DNA of 38,523 nucleotides from Bacteroidota bacterium (GTDB lineage: Bacteria; Bacteroidota; Ignavibacteria; Kryptoniales; JAKASW01), in NCBI GenBank assembly GCA_021789975.1, contig JAJYIT010000040.1, forward strand, positions 1-38,523, read 5' to 3'. Below the pieces are notes generated by a model. The model was not told where the DNA came from and searched no databases. It saw only the letters and a list, made by a program, of their open reading frames with translations. The position numbers and the translations under genes were made by a program. Below, piece by piece: positions 28,751 to 35,212 of the stretch. Position 1 is the stretch's first letter; every line of letters begins with the position of its first letter.

Positions 28751-31700
28751 ATGATTCAGAGGCTTATACTCGCAACTTTGATGTTGGTTGGTGCCAGAGC
28801 GGTAGCTGGTAATCGGGTTCTGATCGTTTACGAGGGTAAGGATAGTCAAACCAATCCTGCGAAAGGGGACGCGCTTCAATTATTTCAACTACTTGGACAT
28901 TTCGATCTTCAGAAAACGCTCGTTCCCGATAGCCAGTACAAAACAGGCGAGTGCAACAGCTTCGACTTTGTCTTTTACACCGGTTTCACCAATGCGTGCC
29001 AACCACCCGACCGGTTTTTGGATGACATTTACAGCTACAGAGGAACGATCGTCTGGCTAAACACCGGGATTATTGCTCTCAACTCTCGGCATAATTTGTT
29101 GAAGAAATACGGTTTTATTCCTGAAAGGTACGACTCTACCGCAGGTTTTGATGCGGTAGTTGCTACGGATAGAAATTTCCGCTTCACTAAAGGTGACAAC
29201 TATCTTACCATAATGTCAATCAGAGACAGGGCGAAAGTTGAAGTCCTTGCCAACGCGGTAGCACCTGCTCATCTGGTTTCTCCGTATGCCATTCATTCGG
29301 GTAACCTTTACGTGTTTGGAGATTCACCGTTCTCATATGTGAGCACAACCGACCGGTATATCTTCTTTGCGGAAAAGCTGCACGATATCCTTGGACAGGA
29401 ACACAAGGAGTTTCATCCGGCGCTAATCAGAATAGAGGATGTCGATCCCACCGAGGATCCCAACAGCATTCGAAAGATCGCGGACTTACTGCATGGAGAG
29501 GGCGTCCCTTTTCTTGTTGCTGTTGTTCCCCTGTATGTGGATCCCGGCAACAATGTGAGGATCGCGCTTTCAGACAAGCCCGACATGGTGGACGCTCTGC
29601 GGTACGCCGAGCAGCATGGCGGAACTATTGTTATGCACGGAGTCACCCATCAGTACCATGGGGTTACTACTAACGACTACGAGTTTTGGGATGGGGCTGC
29701 GAACAAGCCGATCACGAACGACAATGCCGCATACGTTCAACAGAAACTGGAAATCGGAGTACAGGAGTTGATGCGGAATGGAATTTATCCTGTCGCCTGG
29801 GAGACTCCTCACTACGGCGCATCTGAAATCGACTACGCTGCTATCGGCAAAGTCTTTTCGACTGTGGTTGAGCAACGGATGCTGATGAACGATCTTAATT
29901 ACAGTCAATTCTTCCCTTATGAGATCAAGAAAGACATGTTCGGTGAGAAGATCATCCCTGAGAACCTCGGTTACGTCCCGCTCGGAAGTAATCAGGAAGA
30001 GGAACAAGCAGTGAAGGACATAATTGAGGGTGCGAGGATTAATCTTTATGTCCGTGATGGCTATGCCACGGCGTTCTTTCATCCGTTTATGCCGATCCAC
30101 CTGTTGAAGGAAATAGTAGAAGGCATAAAAGGACTGGGGTATACATTTGTGAGTCTGCGGGACCAGAACAATCTGGTGAAATTGCCCGACAGGGCCATTG
30201 TAACGGGAAAAGAGTCGTTTAGCATATCGCTCGAGGATCAGTATCTGAAAGAAGTATACCTCGACGGTAACGGAACTCAGGTCCGAAGGGATATAACTCC
30301 GGGACGCCTGACTGCCACCGTTAATCGAAACATAAAGCTGAAACAGGGTTGGATTTATGCAGCAGAGCCCATCGAGTATCGTGCAAAAGAGTTGACAGCT
30401 TTCGACAAGCTTGGAATTGCAATCAAGAATTTCTGGAAAGGGATCTTCCCGGAGAAGAAAACTGTGGTGCCTGCGCGAGCTGCGATAGTTTGGGATTCGA
30501 CCGCGAGAGGAAGTCCGAGGTTGGACCAGGAAAGCTTCTATGAGACGCTGCGTAGCGTCGGCATACCGACGGACACGCTCGCATTCGCTGACCTCGGAAA
30601 TATCGGTGAGTACAATCTCCTCATCGTACCATATTATGCCGCTGAAAATCTGCCTGACTCTCTCTACGAAGTCATTGAAAAGTATATCACGGACGGCGGG
30701 CACCTTATAACCGATTTGCAGAATCCGCTGGATATTGATCTTGGGGTGCAGTTCAGCAAGAATGTCATGAGGGTTGAAAAGATTAGAGATAGACTTTTTC
30801 CTGAGGAGCTTCTGACCTGGAGTACTTTTGAGACGGTTCACCGGATTGATATTCAGGAGAATGACAAGGTTATTTGCACCAATGACCTGAACGACGCCGC
30901 AGTTGTGTTCGAGCGTAGATATGGCAAAGGCGGATTCATCTGTTTGAGTGCCAGGTTTGACCCGGTGACGGGAGCGGGATACGGCAGGTTCCCCTATTTA
31001 GTAGACTGGATCAAAACTTACTTCGGTCTGTACCCAATTCTCGGGAGAAGCGACCTGGAGATGTACTTTGATCCGGGGCTTGAGAAGAATACCAGCATCG
31101 AAGTACTTGTGCAGAACTGGGCAAAGAAAGGAATTCGCATCATCGACGCCGCAGGATGGCACGAATACCCCAAGTACACGTACGACTATGACCGCCTCAT
31201 CAGACTTTGTCACGCATATGGAATCAAGGTCTATGCTTGGCTTGAGCCCCCTCAAATCAGCAAGAAGTTTTATGACGATCACCCCCAATGGCGGGAGAAG
31301 AACTACAGAGACAAGGATGTAACCCCTGATTGGAGATATCCGGTAGCATTGACTGATACCGCATGCATGAACGCCGCTACATCGTGGGTAGACAAGTTCT
31401 TGACGTCTCACGATTGGGACGGCGTAAACATAGCGGAGATATATTTTGGGGGGGAAGGTGCCCCGAGAGACCCGCGGCTTCTGACGCCTTTCCATCCCAG
31501 TGCCAGGGCTCTGTTCAAGAAAGAGTACGGATTCGATCCTGCCCAGCTTTTCCAACAGGACTCACCGCACTACTACGAGACCTCCCCGCAAGATTGGAAA
31601 ACGTTTCTCAATTTCCGGGCGAATTTGGTCACCCAATTCACTTCTCATTTTCTTTCGATCGCGACGCAGTCGTTCAACAACAAACCGGGAGCCAAAATCA

Positions 31701-32677
31701 TACTTACCGTTCTCGATCAGAAGACCTTTCCGGCCCTGCGCAGTTCCATAGGTGTGGACATCAACCAAATTCTGAAGTTGAAGAAGGACTATAATTTCAG
31801 CCTTCAGGTAGAAGACCCGCAGACAAGTTGGAATTCTGACCCAAGGCGGTACATTTCGATCGGCAATTCATATAAGGAGTTGTTGGGGCCTGATTCGTCT
31901 GAACTAATGCTCGATTTGAATATTCTCGCGTTTCGCCAGCCTGGTAACACGGGAGTCTTTCCAACGTTAGTCCCGACGGGTACAGAATCGTATCTTCTAG
32001 TCAACTCGGCTGCAAAGGCATCTTCCGGAGTTTCGATCTATTCGGAAGCAACGGCTTTGCCGCAGGATGTCGCAGATTTTCCCTACTCATTGGCCGCCGG
32101 AGCGGAGGTTGAAATCATACCGAATGGATTCAGGACTTACGCACCTTATTCAACGTTCATCCGGCTCAGCGACGACGTGGCGCAGATTTCGATTGACGGG
32201 CAGATCGTTTATCCTTATCAGCCCGGTCGTTTCTCAATCCCAGCGGGCGATCACTCGATCGAAATTGTGAAAACGGATGTAAATCCTTTCGAGAGCGGCA
32301 TTATGCAGTCGCACATTGAATATGCTTCATGCAATATACTTTCCGAGCGAACTTTTCAGCGCGGTGTAGAGTTCACATATAGCTCTCTGACGAGGTGCGC
32401 TGTCTCGTTCAGCAAAATGCCGTTTGCGGTTTTTGTGGATGACCATGAGATCGGTTTTTCTGTGGCGCGTGAAGAACAACACTATGGAATAATCCTTCCC
32501 CCGGGGCAGCACAAGGCACTTGTTGTTCTTGAAAGTGCGGTGTCATACGGCATCGATATGACAAGTCTCTGGTCGTCGGCATTAATTGCCATATTCGGAT
32601 CAGTCGCCGGCGGTCTCCTTATTGTCTTGTACGTCGTTTTGAAATTGAGAAAAAGAGGGGCTGTCGCGCGTGTATAA
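28751..32677 (+). CDS. Exported DUF2334 deacetylase-like and glycoside-hydrolase-like multidomain protein
   Basis: A 1308-residue membrane-anchored protein. Order: signal peptide (1-20); an N-terminal alpha/beta region (20-215); a DUF2334/CE4-like domain (about 220-500) with metal motifs RIEDVD (D230, D232), HGVTH (H296, H300) and WETPHYG (from W350); a Rossmann or ThuA/glutamine-amidotransferase-like domain (about 575-765); a TIM-barrel glycoside-hydrolase-like domain (about 771-1120) resembling GHL10/DUF187 proteins, with IKVYAWLEPP and WDGVNIAEIYFGG, where E896 is a candidate acid residue; beta domains; and a C-terminal membrane helix near 1275-1300 ending in RKRG. A deacetylase and a hydrolase joined in one exported chain recall PgaB and PelA, but the domain families and order differ. 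The next gene overlaps it by 8 nt and encodes a polysaccharide synthase-like enzyme. The substrate is unknown. Confidence 0.85.
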   Translation: MIQRLILATLMLVGARAVAGNRVLIVYEGKDSQTNPAKGDALQLFQLLGHFDLQKTLVPDSQYKTGECNSFDFVFYTGFTNACQPPDRFLDDIYSYRGTIVWLNTGIIALNSRHNLLKKYGFIPERYDSTAGFDAVVATDRNFRFTKGDNYLTIMSIRDRAKVEVLANAVAPAHLVSPYAIHSGNLYVFGDSPFSYVSTTDRYIFFAEKLHDILGQEHKEFHPALIRIEDVDPTEDPNSIRKIADLLHGEGVPFLVAVVPLYVDPGNNVRIALSDKPDMVDALRYAEQHGGTIVMHGVTHQYHGVTTNDYEFWDGAANKPITNDNAAYVQQKLEIGVQELMRNGIYPVAWETPHYGASEIDYAAIGKVFSTVVEQRMLMNDLNYSQFFPYEIKKDMFGEKIIPENLGYVPLGSNQEEEQAVKDIIEGARINLYVRDGYATAFFHPFMPIHLLKEIVEGIKGLGYTFVSLRDQNNLVKLPDRAIVTGKESFSISLEDQYLKEVYLDGNGTQVRRDITPGRLTATVNRNIKLKQGWIYAAEPIEYRAKELTAFDKLGIAIKNFWKGIFPEKKTVVPARAAIVWDSTARGSPRLDQESFYETLRSVGIPTDTLAFADLGNIGEYNLLIVPYYAAENLPDSLYEVIEKYITDGGHLITDLQNPLDIDLGVQFSKNVMRVEKIRDRLFPEELLTWSTFETVHRIDIQENDKVICTNDLNDAAVVFERRYGKGGFICLSARFDPVTGAGYGRFPYLVDWIKTYFGLYPILGRSDLEMYFDPGLEKNTSIEVLVQNWAKKGIRIIDAAGWHEYPKYTYDYDRLIRLCHAYGIKVYAWLEPPQISKKFYDDHPQWREKNYRDKDVTPDWRYPVALTDTACMNAATSWVDKFLTSHDWDGVNIAEIYFGGEGAPRDPRLLTPFHPSARALFKKEYGFDPAQLFQQDSPHYYETSPQDWKTFLNFRANLVTQFTSHFLSIATQSFNNKPGAKIILTVLDQKTFPALRSSIGVDINQILKLKKDYNFSLQVEDPQTSWNSDPRRYISIGNSYKELLGPDSSELMLDLNILAFRQPGNTGVFPTLVPTGTESYLLVNSAAKASSGVSIYSEATALPQDVADFPYSLAAGAEVEIIPNGFRTYAPYSTFIRLSDDVAQISIDGQIVYPYQPGRFSIPAGDHSIEIVKTDVNPFESGIMQSHIEYASCNILSERTFQRGVEFTYSSLTRCAVSFSKMPFAVFVDDHEIGFSVAREEQHYGIILPPGQHKALVVLESAVSYGIDMTSLWSSALIAIFGSVAGGLLIVLYVVLKLRKRGAVARV

Positions 32678-33959
32678 TTTCGTTACCACACTCCTGGGTG
32701 CTCTCTTCGTTTTGTCTGTTATACTCATTTGGTTTATGATCGCTTACCAGCTCGTACTTACAGTTGCGGGATTCTTCCATAACTGGGGATCGGCTAAGGA
32801 GAAAAGAGAGATCGATGGCATGACGCACCTTGAATATCCGACTGTGTGCGTTTTGATCCCGGCGCATAACGAAGAGACTGTCATCAGAGGAACCGTGGAA
32901 GCGATGATGGCTTTTGACTACCCACACGACAAGCTGGAAATACTTGTGATAAATGACGGATCGTCGGATAACACCGGACCGATCGTTGAAGATCTGGGAA
33001 GTAGAGATGGTAGAGTTAGGTGCTACAATGTTCCCAAGGGTGAGGGAGGAAAAGGGAAGTCTCGTGCACTAAATCTCGGTTTGAAACAGACCAATGCGGA
33101 GGTAATTGCGATTTACGACGCAGATAATCAACCTCTGCCTGATGCGTTGAAATATCTCGTGGCTGAATTGTTGATCCATCCGGATCTGGGTGCCGTGCTG
33201 GGAAATTTCAGGACAATCAACAGAGATCGTACCTGGCTTACAAGATTCATCAGCATTGAAACGATGAGCTTCCAGGCAATACTTCAAGCCGGGAGATGGG
33301 CGCTATTCAAAGTCTCGACACTTCCCGGGACTAATTTTGTGATCTGGAAAAGCCTGGTGGATGACCTGCATGGCTGGGACGAAGATGCGATTACCGAAGA
33401 CTCTGAATTGAGCATCCGAATTTACATGCGAGGATATAAAATAAAATACATCCCCTTCGCGGTGACACTTGAGCAGGAACCCGAAACGATGTCCGTCTGG
33501 ACAAAGCAGCGGACAAGGTGGGTTAGGGGGAACAATTATGTGGTGACGAAGTTCTTCAAGGAGATTCCCCAATTCAAGAATAAGTTTCTCGCTTTCGAAG
33601 TCCTTTACCTTCTCTTGCTGTATTACATCTTCCTGATCGCCATTGGCGTGAGCGATTTGATATTCATCCTGAGTGTAAGTCAATTGATAGCTATTCCGCT
33701 GCCCGGCCCATACACTGCTGTTTGGATCCTCGCGGTAATTTTGTTCTGTTTCGAGATATTCCTGGTTTTGTCATACGAAGGTATGGACTCATTTAAGAAT
33801 TTCGTCATGGCCTTCTTAATGTATTTTACTTACTGTCAGTTCTGGATCTATGTCGTGGGCAGGGGGATTTACCTCGACTACATAAAGCGAGAGAAACGAA
33901 CCTGGACAAAGACGGTCAGGTTCAAACTGGGAGAACAGGCGGAGAAATCGTCCGGATGA
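32670..33959 (+). CDS. Membrane family 2 glycosyltransferase (PgaC/BcsA-like processive synthase)
   Basis: A 429-residue enzyme, close to PgaC in length. One N-terminal membrane helix (about 5-30), a cytoplasmic GT2 domain (50-300), and three or four C-terminal membrane helices. The catalytic set of processive synthases is complete: VLIPAHNE and VINDGSSD for the nucleotide sugar, D150-A-D152 for metal, T-E243-D244 with the base, and Q280-R-T-R-W284 at the polymer-binding site. Such enzymes polymerise a sugar on the cytoplasmic face and push the chain through the membrane. No PilZ domain is present, so direct c-di-GMP control is not evident. The start is GTG with AGAGGGG about 9 nt upstream; it overlaps the deacetylase-like gene, and its stop overlaps the next start (ATGA). 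Confidence 0.94.
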   Translation: MYNFVTTLLGALFVLSVILIWFMIAYQLVLTVAGFFHNWGSAKEKREIDGMTHLEYPTVCVLIPAHNEETVIRGTVEAMMAFDYPHDKLEILVINDGSSDNTGPIVEDLGSRDGRVRCYNVPKGEGGKGKSRALNLGLKQTNAEVIAIYDADNQPLPDALKYLVAELLIHPDLGAVLGNFRTINRDRTWLTRFISIETMSFQAILQAGRWALFKVSTLPGTNFVIWKSLVDDLHGWDEDAITEDSELSIRIYMRGYKIKYIPFAVTLEQEPETMSVWTKQRTRWVRGNNYVVTKFFKEIPQFKNKFLAFEVLYLLLLYYIFLIAIGVSDLIFILSVSQLIAIPLPGPYTAVWILAVILFCFEIFLVLSYEGMDSFKNFVMAFLMYFTYCQFWIYVVGRGIYLDYIKREKRTWTKTVRFKLGEQAEKSSG

Positions 33960-35212
33960 CGAGGTCCGTATTCTTGTCACTTCTTTTCATCGTGTCCCAA
34001 GCTTCGGCACAGGTTGCATCTTCGATTAACCTGACATATGCGCGAGAATCCAATGTCCTCGGAAACTACGCCGAGATTCCAGATGATTACCTGTCGGCAG
34101 ATTTTTACCTTGATGATTTCACCGGGTGGGATTATTCGAGCCTGGATGTGAGCTATGATGGTACATTATCGAGCTATAATTCCTTTCCGGAACAGGACAA
34201 TTGGGTGCATAACTTCGCGGCTGAATATCGGATACAGTTGACCCGGCCGGATGCCGATAGTGTCCCAGCGGAAGACTCAGATCAGTCAGGAGGTAGTGAT
34301 TCCTTGCAGACCTTCCTTACGCTTGGAGGATTAATCACGAGGACCCTGCCTCACTCGGGCGAATTCCAGCTATACCAAAATTTTGTAAGCGGCGGCTCAG
34401 CCTTCCTCCGACTGCCGGTAGGCCGCAGCGCAGTTCTCCGTTTTGGGTACGTTGTAAACTATACTGGCTTTGATTTTCTGCCTCCTCTTTCGAGCCTTAA
34501 GAATGTCGGGTCGGTCAATTTCTCCGTTCCGGCAGGGAGTGGTGCCACCATCTATGTCGGTGGCGGCTTAGGCAATGAGATGTACTATGGTGTGGACACT
34601 TCCGGCACAGGGGTCCAGAAACTGATAAAGATGCATGGCAACTCCGGCTACAAAGGGAAAGGAAAAGGTGGCGCGCCGAATCCGACCACCTCGTCCAGTA
34701 CATTTCTGCTCACCTCCCCCTCAGTGACCCAGCTTACATACGGAGGCGGAGCCGTTATAGTCTCAGGGAGATGGTCAGCCGATGCCGCCATCATGTTCAG
34801 TAGTAATTTGACAGGCGACGCACGATATATCGACGCAGTCGCGAGGTTTGCCGGTGAAGCGTCTGCGGTCTATGACGATCCATATTCATATCATGGTGGA
34901 GAACTGAAATTAGCGGGCAAGAAAGACTCTCTCATAAATGCGGTTAACGTTGCGCTTGAGTTCACAGGAGCTGTTAAGAACTACGCCAGACCGGCATATG
35001 ATTACACACAAACAATTGAGCTTGCAGATCATAGAAGAGATAGGTATAGCCGCACCTCAGTGACTTTGTCGAGAGTCTTCCGCGTGTCCGGATTTTCTAA
35101 TGATTTTACATTGAGCCTGACTTACAGTCACCTCAGCAACTCTTCCAACGACCAGTACTACAATTTCTTCGACGATATATTCGCAGCTTCGCTCACGGTT
35201 AACCTACTGTGA
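33956..35212 (+). CDS. Putative outer-membrane protein of the polysaccharide operon
   Basis: A 418-residue protein with a signal peptide ending ASAQ near residue 19. The body has alternating strand-like segments with many Tyr, Ser, Asp and Gly residues, a Gly/Lys-rich loop (GNSGYKGKGKGGA) near residue 230, and a hydrophobic last strand (AASLTVNLL). This fits a beta-barrel of the outer membrane, but I recognise no family. It is translationally coupled to the glycosyltransferase gene by a 4-nt overlap. It therefore may be the outer-membrane exit for the polymer, the place taken by PgaA or BcsC in known systems, although it lacks their TPR scaffold. The role is inference. Confidence 0.75.
   Translation: MTRSVFLSLLFIVSQASAQVASSINLTYARESNVLGNYAEIPDDYLSADFYLDDFTGWDYSSLDVSYDGTLSSYNSFPEQDNWVHNFAAEYRIQLTRPDADSVPAEDSDQSGGSDSLQTFLTLGGLITRTLPHSGEFQLYQNFVSGGSAFLRLPVGRSAVLRFGYVVNYTGFDFLPPLSSLKNVGSVNFSVPAGSGATIYVGGGLGNEMYYGVDTSGTGVQKLIKMHGNSGYKGKGKGGAPNPTTSSSTFLLTSPSVTQLTYGGGAVIVSGRWSADAAIMFSSNLTGDARYIDAVARFAGEASAVYDDPYSYHGGELKLAGKKDSLINAVNVALEFTGAVKNYARPAYDYTQTIELADHRRDRYSRTSVTLSRVFRVSGFSNDFTLSLTYSHLSNSSNDQYYNFFDDIFAASLTVNLL

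Follow-up and report, generated by a model that had tools for sequence, protein, structure and literature searches.

A probable synthase-dependent exopolysaccharide locus of the PssB/PssC kind with a fused DUF2334 and TIM-barrel-like partner protein in a Gram-negative lineage

The 38,523-nt stretch of DNA analysed here (the window) corresponds to contig 23 in a genome of 4.7 Mb; relatives of this genome are listed as MAGs of Bacteroidetes and of Candidatus Kryptoniota. Three genes follow each other on the + strand. F0 (28751-32677, 1308 aa) encodes an exported fusion of DUF2334, GATase-like, and GHL6-like parts with a C-terminal membrane anchor, F1 (32670-33959, GTG start, 429 aa) a processive GT2 synthase of the PssC subfamily, and F2 (33956-35212, 418 aa) a predicted 16-strand outer-membrane beta-barrel, which is accessory and not conserved everywhere. 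The ORFs overlap by 8 nt (F0/F1) and 4 nt (F1/F2); coordinates, strands, and overlaps are those of the original prediction, and the three overlapping genes are real.

F0 shows a modular architecture. A signal peptide, recognized by sequence and hydropathy (aa 1-19, 28751-28807), precedes an N-terminal Rossmann/GATase-like domain (aa 20-215, 28808-29395) that is common to stand-alone DUF2334 proteins. In hhalign comparisons, residues 20-470 of F0 match such proteins over their whole length, and the N-terminal domain reaches 99.8% with the Comamonadaceae proteins and 99.0% with those of Streptomyces. The DUF2334 deacetylase-like domain (aa 224-458, 29420-30124) is matched by its Pfam model at residues 224-458 with an E-value of 2.4e-50. 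It is followed by a second GATase-like (Glyco_hydro_42M-like) domain (aa 571-765, 30461-31045) and a GHL6-like TIM-barrel region (aa 766-1110, 31046-32080), both with approximate borders. In F0 itself the Glyco_hydro_42M and GHL6 matches lie below the curated Pfam cut-off; among 25 F0 homologues, the former model is matched by 22 (best 1e-8) and the latter by 11 (best 3.7e-5). The domain reading first proposed for F0 thus holds in general, except that the barrel appears nearer to GHL6 than to GHL10. This putative TIM-barrel assignment rests on a sub-threshold Pfam match, which counts against the explanation of the locus favored below. PDB searches with F0 (phmmer and profile) returned marginal matches only, and an AlphaFold2 model of residues 15-1208, computed with six close homologues, was not used (pLDDT 36.5). 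The only transmembrane helix of F0 (aa 1278-1296, 32582-32638) is preceded by a conserved TSLWSS motif and followed by KLRKR. Since the N-terminus is signal-like and the single C-terminal helix is followed by positively charged residues, the body of F0 should be periplasmic.

Within F0, conservation is highest in the DUF2334 domain and the TIM region. D230, H296, H300, and E896, for which the original prediction had expected conservation, are invariant in the alignment of the 25 homologues, and the same applies to E229, H354, H444, E832, and D890. The DUF2334 domain carries E229-D230, H296xxxH300, H354, and H444, and the TIM region E832, D890, and E896. As far as can be judged from sequence, the ED...HxxxH...H metal-site motif of metal-dependent N-deacetylases is present in F0 and invariant in all 25 proteins. 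An E-D pair, an HxxxH motif, and two more histidines fit CE4-like metal deacetylases. The ED, HxxxH, PHY, and H444 positions are also kept in the Comamonadaceae, Burkholderia, and Streptomyces DUF2334 proteins that were checked.

F1 harbors the full set of motifs of a processive synthase (D150xD152, TE243D244, Q280xxRW284) and matches the GT2 family in Pfam, confirming its assignment as a complete processive GT2 enzyme. D150, D244, Q280, R283, and W284 are invariant in 21 GT2s, and D152 and E243 are at least 90% conserved. Given the processive motifs and five hydrophobic segments, F1 should both polymerise and translocate its product. Among the proteins compared, Listeria PssC ranks first with 44% identity over 96% of the F1 length, followed by an Enterococcus faecalis glycosyltransferase (GT; 43%, nearly whole length) and a GT encoded on an Acinetobacter plasmid in the vicinity of wecB (38%); PgaC (29%) as well as BcsA and NodC (24-25%) are less similar. 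In a GT2 tree, F1 groups with PssC and the E. faecalis and Acinetobacter GTs, apart from PgaC/IcaA/NodC; the comparison relies on the identity ranking and this starred split only, as long-branch attraction draws Escherichia coli BcsA into the class, where its position is unsure. PssC-like GT2 genes are also found on plasmids: in Acinetobacter (L062 5359-12950 and L071 3359-10091) as part of an uncharacterised operon with membrane proteins and wecB nearby, and in Lactiplantibacillus (L070 5989-8422) followed by a GH8 gene.

A combination of deacetylase, hydrolase, and synthase is the common logic of Pga and Pel systems, and the best NCBIfam model for F1 is indeed PgaC_IcaA. The locus might hence be a diverged PNAG (Pga) or Pel system, with F0 as a PgaB or PelA homologue and poly-GlcNAc or Pel as the polymer. 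We consider this very improbable. F1 scores 168 bits with the PgaC_IcaA model, far below the cut-off of 422 bits, while E. coli PgaC reaches 648 and Listeria PssC 185 bits, and its 29% identity to PgaC contrasts with the 44% to PssC. The Pfam models for the PgaB hydrolase and for CE4 are matched by none of the 25 F0 proteins, and hhalign detects no relation between F0 and PgaB; PgaB/PelA homology of F0 was rejected on the basis of Pfam (25 homologues) and hhalign. The resemblance to PgaABCD (PNAG) is thus one of layout, i.e. a deacetylase fused to a hydrolase, a PgaC-like GT2, and a 16-strand barrel, but the deacetylase and hydrolase belong to other families, the GT2 is 29% identical, and a PgaD as well as TPRs are missing. 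No pgaA- or pgaD-like gene is present at the locus, including the ORFs beside F1. PelA, like F0, unites hydrolase, Rossmann-like, and deacetylase domains in one protein, but differs in domain order and shows no sequence relation detectable by Pfam. Among the Pfam hits of the 25 F0 homologues there is no match to a PelA-type hydrolase, and no Pel genes were seen among the ORFs beside F0. The glycosyltransferase of Pel systems is PelF, a GT4 enzyme.

The occurrence of the genes was followed across related genomes. Of 12 other same-genus genomes, 11 contain F0 according to a full-length search, which also detects it in several genera of the class. When a sample of the phylum was searched, F0 appeared within the class only; a search of phages for F0 yielded none. 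The full-length homologues, with 38-74% identity across the class, indicate that the locus is not a chance assembly. In 391 genomes of the class, nearly all strong DUF2334 matches are ORFs of ~1300-1400 aa, i.e. the F0 fusion. F0 and F1 occur together in 71 of these genomes, F0 alone in six, F1 alone in two, and neither in 312 (Fisher p 4e-68, a value that ignores kinship). Three of the six genomes with F0 only (G009, G444, G631) reach a contig end at or near the position just beyond F0, and in a further one (G473) F0 is truncated. At the level of loci, 63 of 65 have F1 directly downstream of F0 and in the same orientation; one exception is cut by a contig end and the other has a truncated F0. 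A few of the 65 loci are the same place entered twice (e.g. L003/L039, and same-genus records as well), so these counts do not represent independent species. The neighborhood of F0 shows further features. Genes for YCF48/BNR beta-propellers adjoin F0 on either strand in many loci of the class (L029, L031, L033, L034, L036, L051, L120, L121, L126, and others). Genes termed F3, located upstream of F0 in several loci, had been considered as TPR proteins; the one scanned turned out to be a YCF48/BNR propeller. A phoH gene beside F0 occurs only in this genus among the loci read; the parallel to E. coli, where phoH adjoins pga, was taken as coincidence.

F2 behaves differently. It shows no significant match to any Pfam family, TPR included. 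Its AlphaFold2 model displays 16 strands and a barrel only, at moderate confidence (pLDDT 64), and Foldseek returned general porin-like matches with a low TM of ~0.4. F2-like barrels exist in 34 of the 65 loci, some of them on the opposite strand, and F2 was not found anywhere in the complete genomes G006 and G008, which belong to the same genus and possess F0 and F1. The conserved unit is therefore F0-F1, with F2 as an accessory. Co-occurrence, originally proposed for all three genes, is borne out for F0 with F1 and not for F2. An obligatory role of F2 is not supported, because many genomes that are otherwise complete lack it, among them two from the same genus. In two same-genus genomes F2 is reduced to fragments, as if decaying (L004 13329-13556, L006 13176-13641). 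A basic KGKGKGG loop in the F2 barrel (residues ~227-240, window 34634-34675) is conserved in close homologues, and more distant homologues show it as well.

With F2 optional and no dedicated outer-membrane porin conserved, the F0-F1 pair could conceivably produce or edit a short glycan, such as a glycolipid or a cell-envelope oligosaccharide, and not an exported polymer. This is rather unlikely, as F1 carries the complete processive QxxRW set and belongs to the PssC subfamily, and a TIM-barrel hydrolase beside an adjoining synthase is typical of EPS systems.

A DUF2334 gene directly upstream of a GT2 of the same subfamily is a feature shared with the Pss system of Listeria (PssA-E, PssZ) and the Yda system of Bacillus subtilis (YdaJKLMN): F1 is a synthase of the PssC/YdaM type, and F0 is an exported, C-terminally anchored DUF2334 protein beside it. 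In L. innocua, the gene before PssC encodes the DUF2334 protein PssB with a signal peptide and a single C-terminal transmembrane helix, and the genes after PssC encode BcsB and a GGDEF protein. A DUF2334 family match was also obtained in B. subtilis, where YdaL is presumably the DUF2334 protein and the YdaL-YdaM arrangement presumably resembles PssB-PssC. The novelty originally attributed to the core of the locus is thus not upheld, since PssB-PssC is a known arrangement with the same signal peptide and anchor layout, and DUF2334 is likewise part of an Nfr-like operon of Comamonadaceae. Deletion of pssC abolishes the listerial EPS (PMC4125290), which consists of beta-1,4-ManNAc with terminal Gal branches and for which PssB is listed as deacetylase (PMC6307706). 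For the yda EPS of B. subtilis, ydaLMN were reported as essential (PMC13274460).

The differences from Pss and Yda concern three points. BcsB (PssD/YdaN; PF03170) is without a match in the whole genome, while the positive controls B. subtilis and E. coli were matched, and a degenerate GGDEF c-di-GMP receptor was not seen among the ORFs beside F0-F2. F0 adds the second GATase-like and the TIM-barrel-like domains to the PssB layout and keeps HxxxH, which PssB lacks. Finally, Listeria has its hydrolase, PssZ, as a protein of its own that belongs to a different family, GH126 (PMC7479077), in contrast to the fused domain of F0. New in comparison with the known systems are hence the one-piece deacetylase-hydrolase anchor, the genome without BcsB, and the intact metal-site motif. 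HxxxH is missing from both L. innocua PssB (L060 6473-7972) and the DUF2334 partner of the E. faecalis GT (L061 5418-7001), which makes active deacetylation more plausible for F0 than for PssB. The same two proteins, linked to the same GT2 subfamily without HxxxH, also speak for F0 being mainly a structural secretion partner that replaces BcsB, its DUF2334 and TIM domains being inactive, and the one conserved transmembrane anchor in a genome without BcsB would suit such a role. We judge this unlikely, given that ED, HxxxH, PHY, and H444 are retained in 25 of 25 full fusions as well as in the proteins checked from Comamonadaceae, Burkholderia, and Streptomyces, and that the two domains in question are the best conserved of F0.

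The sugar is suggested by gene neighborhood. WecB (UDP-GlcNAc 2-epimerase) is encoded directly upstream of F0 on the same strand, at a distance of 19-309 nt, in 20 of 65 loci from 13 genera, and in Comamonadaceae and Streptomyces, too, wecB has DUF2334 and GT genes as neighbors. From this linkage we infer that the donor is UDP-ManNAc and the polymer of ManNAc type. In the window and in the other 45 loci WecB is not beside F0, which counts against this explanation; the genome of the window encodes two WecB proteins elsewhere, of which one shares 53-54% identity with the F0-linked WecBs. A linear plasmid of Streptomyces (L058 4643-11656) carries GH16, wecB, GT2, DUF2334, and GH113-type genes together.

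An operon on a Comamonadaceae plasmid resembles the Nfr system: it contains wecB, a GT 40% identical to NfrB, a DUF2334 protein sharing the N-terminal ~450 residues of F0, a TPR/NfrA_C protein, and a DUF4434 protein 28% identical to YbcH. WecB is needed for the N4 glycan receptor of E. coli (PMC8669472), and the Nfr pathway was proposed to produce a ManNAc polymer (PMC8669472, PMC8669469). The E. coli system (NfrB-NfrA-YbcH and WecB) and its Comamonadaceae version share a GT2-type synthase, WecB, and a periplasmic protein with the locus described here, but their GT is distantly related, and they possess a separate DUF4434 (YbcH-like) protein and the TPR porin NfrA in place of a fusion. In blastp searches, F0, F1, and F2 gave no match to NfrA, NfrB, or YbcH at E 0.01.

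Taken together, the locus is probably a Gram-negative counterpart of the synthase-dependent PssB/PssC (YdaL/YdaM) exopolysaccharide systems, producing a cell-surface polymer that is probably of ManNAc type. The near-perfect co-occurrence of F0 and F1, the invariant D230, H296, H300, and E896, and the absence of BcsB from the genome support the original prediction of an EPS synthase with a tethered deacetylase/hydrolase-type fusion. The locus encodes neither a c-di-GMP receptor nor BcsB nor a TPR porin, which counts against this explanation with regard to regulation and to passage through the periplasm and the outer membrane.

The following course of events can be envisaged. WecB, encoded elsewhere in the genome, would provide UDP-ManNAc, which F1, judging by its motifs and its relation to PssC, would polymerise while threading the chain through the inner membrane. 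F0 would sit beside the synthase, held by its C-terminal helix; this region with its conserved TSLWSS motif may pack on F1 as the BcsB helix does on BcsA. In view of the conserved residues, the DUF2334 domain may strip N-acetyl groups and thus partly de-N-acetylate the polymer, and the TIM-barrel domain may trim chains or release them. In those loci that encode it, F2 is a candidate for the outer-membrane outlet. More tentatively, and with considerable doubt, the class might possess a common machine for a partly de-N-acetylated (cationic) poly-ManNAc, in which one protein anchored in the inner membrane would combine deacetylase, hydrolase, and the structural role of BcsB, and export would proceed without a dedicated TPR porin.

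The findings suggest an additional origin of deacetylase-hydrolase fusions besides PgaB and PelA. DUF2334, together with a PssC-type or Nfr-type synthase and WecB, would tie together the Pss system of Listeria, the Yda system of B. subtilis, and the N4 glycan receptor of E. coli, and this domain of unknown function would gain a testable role as de-N-acetylase of ManNAc-type exopolysaccharides.
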